A stretch of 64,000 nt of DNA from Salinisphaera shabanensis E1L3A (GTDB lineage Bacteria > Pseudomonadota > Gammaproteobacteria > Nevskiales > Salinisphaeraceae), in the NCBI RefSeq assembly GCF_000215955.2, contig NZ_AFNV02000007.1, forward strand, positions 1 to 64,000, in the 5' to 3' direction. Every line of letters begins with the position of its first letter. Positions within the stretch are counted from its first letter, which is position 1. Below are positions 7,453-38,430 of this stretch, in pieces. A program made the position numbers and the translations under genes. The notes beneath the pieces are model-generated. The model was not told where the DNA came from, searched no databases, and saw nothing but the letters and a program-made list of their open reading frames with translations.

Positions 7453-8085
7453 CTAGGCGCCGGCATGCGAGCCGGTATCCTCGAACAGCGCGCACAGAGC
7501 GCGCGCGGCAGCGCCGCTGTCCGGGGCATGAAAGAGCGCGCCGGAGACCGCGATCAGATCGGCGCCGGCAGTGATGATATCGCCTGCGTTGTCTATGTCG
7601 ATGCCACCGATGGCCACCACCGGCACGCCCAGGGCGCGCGCCTGCGCCAACACGCTCGGATCGGCGCCCGGCGCATCGGGTTTCGTGTGCGAGTCGAAAA
7701 ATCGCCCAAAGCTGACATAGCTTGCGCCTTGCTCGATGCCCCGGCGCGCCAGCTCGATTTCGCCGGAACAACTCACGCCGATGATGGCACCCGTGCCCAA
7801 CGCAGCACGCGCGGTGGCGACGCTGCCGTCGCTCTGGCCCATATGTACGCCATCAGCGGCGACTGCCTGGGCGAGCTGCCAATCGTCGTTCACGATCAGC
7901 TGGGCGCCATAGGTGCGCGTGAGCGCGCGCAGTTCGCCGAGCAGCCCGGCATCGATACCGGTATCCCGCTTATCTCGATACTGCAGCCAGCAGGCGCCGC
8001 CGGCGAGGACGGCTTCTACCCGATCGAGGGCGTCGGTGGCCAGTGTAGTGCGATCATAGATCGCGTATAGACCGCGCGCAGTCAC
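7453..8085 (-). CDS. thiE: Thiamine-phosphate synthase ThiE
   Basis: Joins HMP pyrophosphate and the thiazole phosphate to make thiamine monophosphate. A GTG start at 8085 overlaps the thiD stop as GTGA, giving 210 residues, the usual size. Family motifs: [31 protein letters not shown], the phosphate loop region [15 protein letters not shown], and VVAIGGID. An upstream extension to 8160 would run inside thiD and is not supported. The overlap implies translational coupling with thiD. Confidence 0.94.
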
Positions 8086-8861
8086 GACGCGGGCGCAATA
8101 ATTCGTGACGGAATGCGCTGGCCGCGGCCGGCCGCAAAGGCGCGATCGAGTGTTTCCCAAGTGTATTGCTGACCCCGGCGCAATGCCTCGCCGGTTTCAT
8201 GACCGAGGGCGAGCTGGGCCGCGATCGCGCTCGCCAGCGTGCAGCCCGAGCCGTGGAATACGCCGTCCAGACGCGGCCATTCGTAGTGTTCGACCGATTC
8301 GCCGGCGGTGTACCGACGATTGACGACCTGGGCACTGGCTTCGTCGCCGCCGGTGATCAGTACGCTTGCAGCATGGGTGCTCAACGCCTTGCCGCAGCGA
8401 TCCAGATCGGTTTCGCCATGGCACAGAGCGCGTGCTTCGCGAGCGTTGGGTGTAATCACCTGAGCACGATCGAAGAGCTGGTCGTGCAATGCTTTGCCGA
8501 CACTATCGTCGGCTAGCGTGCCACCCCCGGCTGCAACGAGTACCGGGTCGATAACCAGCGGCGTGCCCGGTAACCGATCGAGCAGGGCGGCGATGCATGT
8601 TACCTGTTCGACGTTGGCGATCACCCCGAGCTTGATGGCATCGAAATGCATGTCGGCGACGGCGGTGTCCAGGCAGCGCGCAAAGAACTCGGTCGTTACG
8701 GCTTCCACGCCATGAACGTTGGTGGTGTCCTGGCAGGTCAGCAGCGTGATGACCGTTGCCGCGTGCACGCCTTGGGCGGCAGCGGACTCGATATCGGCCT
8801 GGATCCCGGCGCCACCACTCGGATCGTGCCCGGCAATCACCAGAATATTGGGTCGTTTCAT
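8082..8861 (-). CDS. thiD: Hydroxymethylpyrimidine/phosphomethylpyrimidine kinase ThiD
   Basis: Ribokinase-fold kinase that phosphorylates HMP and then HMP phosphate for thiamine synthesis. The 259-residue product begins MKRPNILVIAGHDPSGGAGIQAD, the signature ThiD start, at ATG 8861. Further motifs: VIDPVLVAAGGGTL, ITPNAREA and the anion-hole/catalytic motif DGVFHGSGCTLASA. The frame continues 15 codons upstream but those residues are not family-like. It is first in thiD-thiE-hemL, and its promoter must lie in the AT-rich region containing DnaA boxes; one box begins 38 bases upstream of the start. Confidence 0.95.
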   Translation of the reverse strand: MKRPNILVIAGHDPSGGAGIQADIESAAAQGVHAATVITLLTCQDTTNVHGVEAVTTEFFARCLDTAVADMHFDAIKLGVIANVEQVTCIAALLDRLPGTPLVIDPVLVAAGGGTLADDSVGKALHDQLFDRAQVITPNAREARALCHGETDLDRCGKALSTHAASVLITGGDEASAQVVNRRYTAGESVEHYEWPRLDGVFHGSGCTLASAIAAQLALGHETGEALRRGQQYTWETLDRAFAAGRGQRIPSRIIAPAS

Positions 8862-8898: not shown

Positions 8899-9375
8899 TT
8901 ATGCACAACGGAAAAAAACGCGGCGGGGCGACTTGCGAAATTTTTTTAGTCGGTAGATTTACGCAATGGCGGTATTAGGTTAAGTGTATGATTTCACAGT
9001 ATTGTTTCCGTATGGTTACAAAATCGCCGGTTTGGGGAAAGCGCTGAAAACACGCCGCTTAAGACGGTTCGGCATCATGGTTTCCACAGGCTTATCCACA
9101 AGTCCTGTGTATTTCTAAGCTTTCGTGTTTAAGCTCAAGCGTTTAGCGAAAACAGCTCAGGGATTGTCTGCTCTACGGTAGGGGTTATGCACAGTGTCAA
9201 CCCGCTTGTGGTTCACGCATCGGTTTGTTATGACGCATTACGTCACTTTTGGTTGATCTGTAACATTATGATTATATTGGTTAAATCAAGTATTTCCTCG
9301 CGATTTCTCGGGTTCCGGGCTGAGGTTTGACCGATAGCGCCGCGCGTCCCCATTTCATCCCCAGATTTATCCACA
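8899..9375. other. oriC: Candidate replication origin: DnaA-box cluster
   Basis: AT-rich gap between thiD and the cpdA-like gene with no coding potential. Four perfect DnaA boxes of the form TTATNCACA lie in the same orientation: TTATGCACA at 8899-8907, TTATCCACA at 9092-9100, TTATGCACA at 9185-9193 and TTATCCACA at 9367-9375, the last overlapping the cpdA stop. A weaker box-like GTTTCCACA precedes the second. The block 9230-9300 is strikingly AT-rich and contains GATCTGTAACATT at 9255-9267, close to an E. coli oriC 13-mer, and AATCAAGTATTTC at 9284-9296, one base from an IHF consensus. All genes to the left run leftward and most to the right run rightward. No dnaA, dnaN, gidA or parAB is in view, so another DnaA-binding locus remains possible. 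Confidence 0.5.
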
Positions 9376-10137
9376 AGCGGCGGTCGCGGATCGGACACGT
9401 TTGACCGTGGTTTCAAATGATTGATCCGCTGCGATTTCGATCAGGCGATACCCCGGTGCCCGCGCCGGGTCGTCAGTAAACGAGTGCGCGCCAGGTGCGA
9501 ATTGGCGCATCGTGCTCGGCGTGACAAGACAGGGGCGGTCGGCGAAATCGAGTTCCGCGGCCTGATGTGCGTGTCCGCAAAGCACTGCCTTTACATGCGC
9601 GCGGCCGGCGACGACCCGTTCGAGCGCGTCGCGATCATGCAGGCCGATCGCATCGATCCAGGCGGCGCCTACGTCGATCGGCGGGTGGTGCACGAATATC
9701 AACGTCGGTGCTGTGTTCTCGGCGAGCCAGCCGTCCAGGCGTTCGAGTTGCTGGCCGCCGAGTTCTCCCGCTTCGCTACCATTGATATGGCTATCCAGCG
9801 CCATCAGCTGCCATTCACCGACGCGCAGACGCTCGTGCACAACCGCATGTTCGAGTGTCTGGGCCATGCGCAGCGGATCGTCGTGATTGCCGGCCATGGC
9901 TAACACCGGGCAGGGCAGGCGGGCGAGGGTGCTATCAAGTCGTTTGTAACCGCGTACGCTTTCGTCGTCGACTAAATCTCCGCCGAGTACGATCGCGTCG
10001 GGGCGTGGCAACGCTTCGAGCGCCGCGGCGAGTACGCGCTGAAATGCGTCTTCCACGAGCCAGCCGTGAAGCCGGGCATCGGCGTCGGCACGCAGGTGTA
10101 GATCGGTGAGGTGGATGATTTGAAGTGTGATACGCAT
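9367..10137 (-). CDS. cpdA: CpdA-like metallophosphoesterase (3',5'-cAMP phosphodiesterase family)
   Basis: Calcineurin-type phosphoesterase of 256 residues with all metal motifs: D-x-H in LTDLHL, GGDLVDD, GNHDD, H in FVHHPP, and GHAH near residue 195. This set and the length match the class III cyclic AMP phosphodiesterase CpdA, which would lower cAMP in the cytoplasm. The start at 10137 has GAGGA about 9 bases upstream. It is monocistronic and divergent from the O-methyltransferase gene. Its stop codon overlaps a perfect DnaA box. Substrate is inferred from family only. Confidence 0.8.
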   Translation of the reverse strand: MRITLQIIHLTDLHLRADADARLHGWLVEDAFQRVLAAALEALPRPDAIVLGGDLVDDESVRGYKRLDSTLARLPCPVLAMAGNHDDPLRMAQTLEHAVVHERLRVGEWQLMALDSHINGSEAGELGGQQLERLDGWLAENTAPTLIFVHHPPIDVGAAWIDAIGLHDRDALERVVAGRAHVKAVLCGHAHQAAELDFADRPCLVTPSTMRQFAPGAHSFTDDPARAPGYRLIEIAADQSFETTVKRVRSATAACG

Positions 10138-38138: not shown

Positions 38139-38184
38139 GGGCGACAGGCGCGAAAGGCGTGCACCTATGCGGTGGCCGCCGTGC

Positions 38185-38322
38185 GTCTTCTTTCATCCGG
38201 ACTCTAACCGTCGGCTCTGGCATCGCACCAGATCTGCTGACCCTCGACGATGAATCGAGGCGCTCGCGGGCTCGTCGAGTACGACATACCGCCGGTGGGG
38301 AATTACACCCCGCCCTGAAGAC
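38185..38322 (-). ncRNA. FMN riboswitch (RFN element)
   Basis: Complete aptamer in the ribB leader. On the minus strand it opens with GTCTTCAGGGCGGGGTG and AATTCCCCACCGGCGGT, continues with CGAGCCCGCGAGCG, and closes with GCCGACGGTTAGAGTCC and GGATGAAAGAAGAC; P1 is GTCTTC/GAAGAC. All core blocks of the RFN consensus are recognisable. Binding of FMN would reduce ribB expression. Confidence 0.97.
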
Positions 38323-38430
38323 GGTGGCGAGTATAGCCGATCACGCAGGTCCCGTCAGATCGGTTCGCCATTGGTTCGCAGGAAGTCGCCACAGGCCCTA
38401 CTATTCCGCCTTGTTTGAAAGACCTCGATC

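Follow-up and report, generated by a model that had tools for sequence, protein, structure and literature searches.

A DARS2-like candidate locus for DnaA control in the thiD-cpdA gap of Salinisphaera shabanensis

Four perfect DnaA boxes, all facing the same way, lie together in the gap between thiD and cpdA of Salinisphaera shabanensis E1L3A, and they raise the question of what such a cluster does so close to two metabolic genes. A preliminary description of this DNA took them for a chromosomal origin next to thiD/cpdA, and named a DnaA-reactivating or DnaA-titrating locus of the DARS or datA kind as the alternative. Here we analyse the whole 64-kb stretch that contains the cluster (the window), which forms the first part of the 148.8-kb contig C35, together with related genomes. 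The cluster itself is confirmed and the alternative gains support, whereas the oriC beside thiD/cpdA does not. From its layout, the gap probably holds a DARS2-like, non-coding control locus that reactivates DnaA.

Layout of the thiD-cpdA gap

A scan of both strands found two copies of TTATGCACA (8899, 9185) and two of TTATCCACA (9092, 9367), the four lying on the plus strand. These are the only four matches to TTATNCACA in the window and all fall in the thiD-cpdA gap, as the preliminary description had it. Its estimate that well under one such 9-mer per strand would be expected by chance agrees with our shuffle test, in which 100 dinucleotide shuffles yielded 0.53 matches on average and three at most, and none reached four. 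Genome-wide (3.76 Mb in 41 contigs), TTATNCACA occurs 35 times against 19 for a reversed control pattern, and the list of these matches holds no second half-kilobase with four sites. Elsewhere in the same genome, a same-strand TTATCCACA pair 173 bp apart was seen about 241 kb from dnaA (G000:C39:261347-261528).

The gap runs from the thiD start at 8861 to the cpdA stop codon at 9367 and has 47.2% GC against 61.8% for the window, so that it is indeed an AT-rich gap in GC-rich DNA. An alternative GTG start for thiD at 8906 would overlap the box at 8899. The list of open reading frames likewise confirms that all eight genes to the left of the cluster point leftward (rpoH, hemL, thiE and thiD were checked against families, the other four named by eye); to its right, cpdA, a 2-hydroxyacid dehydrogenase gene, metF, ahcY and metK also point leftward. 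No Rfam family was found at gathering score in the gap. The sole Rfam match at that score in the window is an FMN riboswitch (RF00050, 116.5 bits) at 38181-38326 on the minus strand.

Two weaker boxes in the gap, absent from the preliminary description, turn out to be the informative ones: one at 9080 and an inverted one at 9106-9114. With the perfect box at 9092 they make up a core of three (III, II and I), and box II is the reference point for the offsets given here.

8082-8861, minus strand: thiD (HMP/HMP-P kinase), flanking gene; TIGR00097 at 198 bits, just below the cut-off of 204.95
8899-8907, plus strand: distal DnaA box TTATGCACA, -193 from box II
8981-8993, plus strand: IHF-like site TAAGTGTATGATT, -111; 8/9 fixed positions of YAANNNNTTGATW
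9014-9028, plus strand: Fis-like site GGTTACAAAATCGCC, -78; 5/6 fixed positions of GnnYAnnnnnTRnnC, a sequence match only
9080-9088, plus strand: core DnaA box III GTTTCCACA, 8/9, 12 bp before box II
9092-9100, plus strand: core DnaA box II TTATCCACA, perfect match
9106-9114, minus strand: core DnaA box I AAATACACA, 7/9, inverted and weak, 14 bp after box II
9185-9193, plus strand: DnaA box of a second module, TTATGCACA
9261-9273, plus strand: IHF-like site of the second module, TAACATTATGATT, -106 from the last box; 8/9 fixed positions
9367-9375, plus strand: last DnaA box of the second module, TTATCCACA, overlapping the cpdA stop codon, with no inverted partner
9367-10137, minus strand: cpdA-like cyclic-AMP phosphodiesterase gene, the other flank; best family PRK11148 at 179.9 bits, below the cut-off of 225

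Around box II, Fis-like matches in the window fall at -222, -78, -2 and +41.

Escherichia coli DARS1 and DARS2 were taken from NC_000913 and scanned in the same way as the window. In each, two oppositely oriented boxes stand 14 bp apart, with a third at a spacing of 12 bp, in agreement with the accessible text of PMC5742627, which gives the two loci one common spacing with box I opposite; the core geometry is also given in the accessible text of PMC8682772. The core in the window has this spacing and polarity, and is weak in sequence. Read on the minus strand, its boxes I and II would stand head to head with box III in tandem, as in a DARS core.

Conservation upstream of thiD and spread among genomes

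Of 61 genomes searched for thiD (the window's own and 60 relatives), 59 gave a match, and the best-scoring 30 of these 59 loci were read, all of which were kept in the counts. Loci were anchored without gaps on box II, since unequal gene flanks made a global MAFFT alignment of these upstream sequences uninformative. Core counts are favoured by this procedure because the anchor maximises the sum of the three core scores; counts for the IHF-like site, the Fis-like site and the distal box are the best within 13, 5 and 35 offsets, respectively, and are favoured less.

The element was recognisable upstream of thiD in all 30 loci read, so the core site is kept in relatives at this position. Box II matched at all nine positions in 26 of the 30, and box III reached at least 7/9 at -12 in every one; the inverted box I reached at least 7/9 at +14 in 22 loci and fell below 7/9 in eight. 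Between -180 and -193, a distal box scoring 8/9 or better is present in 29 loci, and all 30 have a Fis-like site of at least 5/6 at -77 to -79. The IHF-like site matched at least seven of nine fixed positions in 28 loci and at least eight in 24. thiE was found in all 30 loci and cpdA was detected in only 17, so that the gene beyond the element is not constant. For G036 and G044, which were covered by the box list, two boxes spaced 190-191 bp apart lie immediately upstream of thiD. In G045, a genome of the same order, the thiD match is only 38% identical and has no TTATNCACA close to it.

The box of the second module at 9185 has a counterpart in seven of the 30 thiD loci (six of the 13 from the same genus and one from another genus). 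Across these seven the IHF-like site of the module matches from six to eight of nine fixed positions and is thus poorly conserved. None of the nine other loci of the family has a box pair at the second-module spacing; among those nine, a pair of 8/9 boxes spaced 69 bp apart occurs in L041 and a single one in L055.

These counts bear on the possibility that the locus is datA-like, or a plain titration site, at which two co-oriented high-affinity boxes around an IHF bend would gather ATP-DnaA and promote its hydrolysis or sequester it. In E. coli datA a direct box stands at -162 and, at -97, an IHF site oriented as in the window, with an inverted box nearby, and the second module of the window (box, IHF-like site, box, with no inverted box) fits datA better than DARS. 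However, the inverted box of datA lies at +12 and not +14, and its tandem partner stands beside the other high-affinity box, while the element combines the DARS triple spacing with a Fis-like site at every one of the 30 thiD loci. In three genomes it lies at 0.36-0.49 of the half-chromosome, and datA at 0.20. We regard a datA-like or purely titrating locus as unlikely.

The full architecture was sought in one genome per species (genome_contigs, 84,980 species) with a pattern that joins three boxes (distal, tandem and II) and allows 160-188 free bases. At least 118 stretches carry it; the set used here is non-random, with 120 elements found among the matches listed and two dropped as more than 85% identical. 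Where titles name a group, the matches listed are mostly Gammaproteobacteria, including former Betaproteobacteria, the listed exceptions being two rickettsial MAGs, a Rhodospirillales MAG, a Desulfobulbus MAG and Agreia. Parts for which the pattern did not select recur in these 118 listed elements: an inverted box stands at +14 in 71% (median of other offsets 0.8%, next best 20%), and an IHF-like site of at least 8/9 lies at -108 to -111 in 68% (-110 in 32%, -109 in 19%, -111 in 11% and -108 in 6%; best on the opposite strand, 6%). Fis-like matches occur at -78 in 38% and at -77 in 14%, and in the same set also on the boxes (-10 in 26%, +17 in 17%, -21 in 15%). The distal-to-core spacing among the matches listed is mostly 176-180 or 186-193, about one helical turn apart, the lower group being cut off because the lower limit of the pattern is 176. 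One of the listed loci, from Collimonas silvisoli (L166), has tandem copies of the element 458 bp apart (2261-2456 and 2719-2912), which recalls the double module of the window.

The genes beside the listed elements differ. By cluster representatives only, a gene cluster downstream in 42 of the 118 listed loci is primosomal protein N' (PriA, 330 residues tested), one upstream in 22 is HemE and one found in nine is HemW. The recurrence of the same architecture beside these and other genes in other lineages speaks against a DnaA-controlled promoter of thiD, or of thiD-thiE-hemL, that DnaA bound upstream would repress or activate. Such a promoter would suit the distal box, which precedes the thiD start by about 38 bp, and the finding of the element upstream of thiD in 30 loci, although these were chosen via thiD. 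Yet the distance from the distal box to the edge of thiD homology varies from 25 to 235 bp across 26 loci (L048, whose perfect box is the core box, was left out of this range), whereas the internal distances are fixed. We find the promoter reading improbable, and would allow for an influence of the element on thiD as a side effect only.

A pattern for the core alone, with 17 fixed bases and designed from DARS1, DARS2 and the thiD/cpdA site, occurs in 224 of 369 genomes of the class (192 of 314 of good quality), and the reversed control gave zero in every row listed. In the window's genome its one match is the thiD/cpdA site, and in one genome of the same genus (G013) it was not found. The phylum sample gave 93 genomes of 249, namely 28 of the 67 that belong to the class and 65 of the 182 that do not; the core is therefore not confined to the class. 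Three families account for 57 of the 65 outside matches (f203 with 43, f207 and f211 with seven each). Two genomes (G582 and G594) have exactly two core matches each, one close to DARS1 and the other close to DARS2. The most matches in the phylum sample, seven in a 3.1-Mb genome, were seen in G465 of family f203.

GC skew and the distance from dnaA

In the window's genome dnaA (C39:19326-20609) lies on a contig other than that of the cluster, with gidA at C39:234964. The preliminary description had looked to a skew minimum near 9 kb as the sign of an origin; the cumulative skew of C39 instead has its minimum at 22-24 kb, beside dnaA (19.3-20.6 kb), and makes a second, shallow dip at 33-35 kb, and the relatives sampled have no switch at the element. 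On C35 the skew is about zero for the first 8 kb and then positive, giving an apparent break near 8 kb. We take this break as local noise because relatives do not have it, only 8 kb lie to its left and the contig ends there. Since relatives lack the skew break, we also abandoned the idea of a single origin at which C35 and C39 would join.

Over 36-61 kb on each side of the element in three genomes of the same genus (G008, G004 and G011), skew was +0.025 to +0.026 to the left and +0.028 to +0.032 to the right. Whole chromosomes were sampled as 20-kb pieces in one- or two-contig genomes of the order, with 20 pieces for G007 (same genus) and ten each for G044 and G036. The sign change brackets dnaA both in G007 (1.32-1.55 Mb, dnaA at 1.453 Mb) and in G044 (3.22-3.50 Mb, dnaA at 3.344 Mb; a sample at 2.1 Mb was about zero). 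In G036 the switch at 1.4-1.8 Mb is near dnaA at 1.297 Mb but does not bracket it, the samples being -202 at 1.2 Mb, -24 at 1.4 Mb and +403 at 1.8 Mb. The element falls outside the switch interval in all three, at 433.6 kb in G007, 229 kb in G044 and 1.92 Mb in G036. Its distance from dnaA is 1021, 684 and 624 kb, respectively; as fractions of half the contig these distances are 0.49, 0.36 and 0.36 (the main contig of G036 comprises 3.46 of about 3.6 Mb). For G042, where position only was taken, with no skew samples, the replichore fraction of the element is 0.58. With oriC of E. coli at 3.9258 Mb, the corresponding fractions are 0.41 for DARS2, 0.20 for datA and 0.66 for DARS1.

In favour of a chromosomal origin at thiD/cpdA one could cite the perfect boxes, the AT-rich gap that contains them, the IHF-like site and the apparent skew break near 8 kb, but the skew contradicts it, switching at or near dnaA and away from the element in the three sampled genomes, keeping its sign across the element in the three same-genus contigs and reaching its C39 minimum beside dnaA, so that we consider an origin in the gap extremely improbable.

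Other box arrangements were seen in these genomes. Co-oriented TTATNCACA/TTATCCACA pairs with 186-bp spacing lie about 259 kb from dnaA at G036:C1:1557462-1557656 and about 105 kb from dnaA at G042:C1:2321120-2321314, and both genomes also have boxes upstream of thiD. G042, a genome of the order, further carries 28 TTATNCACA sites in 124 kb (G042:C1:388102-512451), 24 of them on one strand.

For four of the genomes listed in the architecture scan the distance between element and dnaA was obtained: about 53 kb in an uncultured gammaproteobacterium (L099), 33-34 kb in Limnobacter humi (L122), 68-70 kb in Solimonas variicoloris (L138) and 1.03 Mb in Pseudomonas sp. 8AS (L154), the values for L122 and L138 assuming that contig 1 is the record with the element. 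Distances of 33-70 kb mean that some lineages have origin-proximal elements, whose role may differ and which possibly form a second class.

The DARS2-like reading and known systems

The preliminary description's alternative is supported by the DARS core geometry with IHF-like and Fis-like sites, and DARS-like reactivation is the best reading of function that these sequence features suggest, in a layout that shares features with datA. The DARS reading rests on core spacing and polarity equal to those of DARS1 and DARS2 (14 and 12 bp, box I opposite), on the conservation of the parts in the 30 thiD loci and the recurrence of unselected parts in the 118 listed elements, and on the presence of the core in 224 of 369 class genomes, the same pattern finding a DARS1-like and DARS2-like pair in G582 and G594. 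It rests further on an IHF-like site oriented as in DARS2, on replichore fractions of 0.49, 0.36 and 0.36 against 0.41 for DARS2, and on the window's genome encoding IHF alpha, IHF beta and Fis, which all score above curated NCBIfam cut-offs. An HU-like protein in that genome falls below its NCBIfam cut-off, and a gene piece on C35 has Hda as its best match, below the full-length cut-off.

Several findings count against a DARS2-like locus. The weak box I (7/9 in the window and below 7/9 in eight of 30 loci) is among the strongest limits. The likeness to datA is another strong one: the succession of box, IHF-like site and box also resembles datA. The misses in G013 and G045 count against the reading too, as does the co-orientation of the distal box. 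Unlike DARS2, related elements lie 33-70 kb from dnaA in some lineages, and the core is found also outside the class, in 65 of 182 genomes. The putative IHF and Fis sites are consensus matches, and Fis-like matches also pile up on boxes.

How a DARS2-like locus in this gap might work can be outlined by analogy with E. coli. ADP-DnaA would bind the core, where the head-to-head pair of AAA+ domains would free ADP, and apo-DnaA would then depart and take up ATP. IHF at 8981 and Fis at 9014 may shape the DNA so that the distal box at 8899 is drawn to the core, and their involvement would tie the reaction to the cell cycle and growth phase. The place near mid-replichore would set the gene dosage of the locus, and a titrating or datA-like activity may be contributed by the second box-IHF-box module (9185-9375). 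Binding, nucleotide exchange and an effect on initiation are all what we infer. In E. coli, DARS2 carried on a plasmid leads to over-initiation, according to the accessible text of PMC4245941.

A broader and more speculative proposal, which we hold with low confidence, is that TTATGCACA, IHF site, Fis site and head-to-head triple form one compact module of the DnaA cycle that merges the datA and DARS2 layouts and could switch DnaA both ways. It would be widespread in Gammaproteobacteria (including former Betaproteobacteria) at thiD, priA/hemE and hemW, with a tandem second copy in part of Salinisphaera, and datA and DARS2 of E. coli would be derived, split versions.

The work on DnaA reactivation that our literature search returned, as far as its accessible text goes, concerns E. 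coli; Salinisphaera and its order extend the core geometry to another gene neighbourhood. The accessible text of PMC5742627, PMC8682772, PMC4585315, PMC4245941 and PMC12371093 yielded no mention of a DARS2-like locus at thiD/cpdA, the published DARS2 species lists standing in supplements outside that search. We would predict that the nucleotide cycle of DnaA is wired by loci that move yet keep their internal geometry, and the core pattern offers a sequence-based means to find such loci.

Among the known systems, oriC shares with the element DnaA boxes and an IHF-like site in an AT-rich gap, but the element lies away from the skew switch, at no GC-skew minimum, and its boxes are far apart. In a common frame, the element has its core in common with DARS and its box-IHF-box backbone with datA as well. 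datA, like the element, has two co-oriented high-affinity boxes around one IHF site of the same orientation. The datA order of tandem boxes 7-2, IHF site and box 3 at datA spacing is nevertheless not that of the window, where the tandem pair stands on the other side of the IHF-like site and the distances are 82 and 111 against 65 and 97 (the Fis-like scan did not include datA). DARS1 (bioD-uvrB) is identical in core spacing and polarity, yet in its scanned surroundings there is no IHF-like site at 12/13, whereas the element has conserved IHF-like and Fis-like sites.

DARS2 (rppH-mutH), with its IHF and Fis sites, is conserved at a similar genomic position in beta- and gamma-proteobacteria close to E. 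coli, according to the accessible text of PMC5742627, PMC8682772 and PMC4245941. Strict membership of DARS2 fails on genomic position, the element lying in the thiD/cpdA gap and not beside mutH, at a similar replichore fraction. Its box I is weaker and it has an extra downstream module; its distal box is co-oriented, whereas the box of DARS2 at -197 is inverted, and DARS2 has a second IHF-like site at -83. Fis-like matches in the DARS2 scan fall at -55, -137, -185, -205 and -225, any of which might be the published, essential FBS2-3 sites, against one conserved site at -78 in the element. What the two have in common is the spacing and polarity of a three-box core with box I opposite, a candidate IHF site beside it in the same orientation (at -99 in DARS2 and, 12 bp further out and conserved, at -111 in the element) and an extra full-consensus box near -195, at -197 in DARS2 and -193 in the element.
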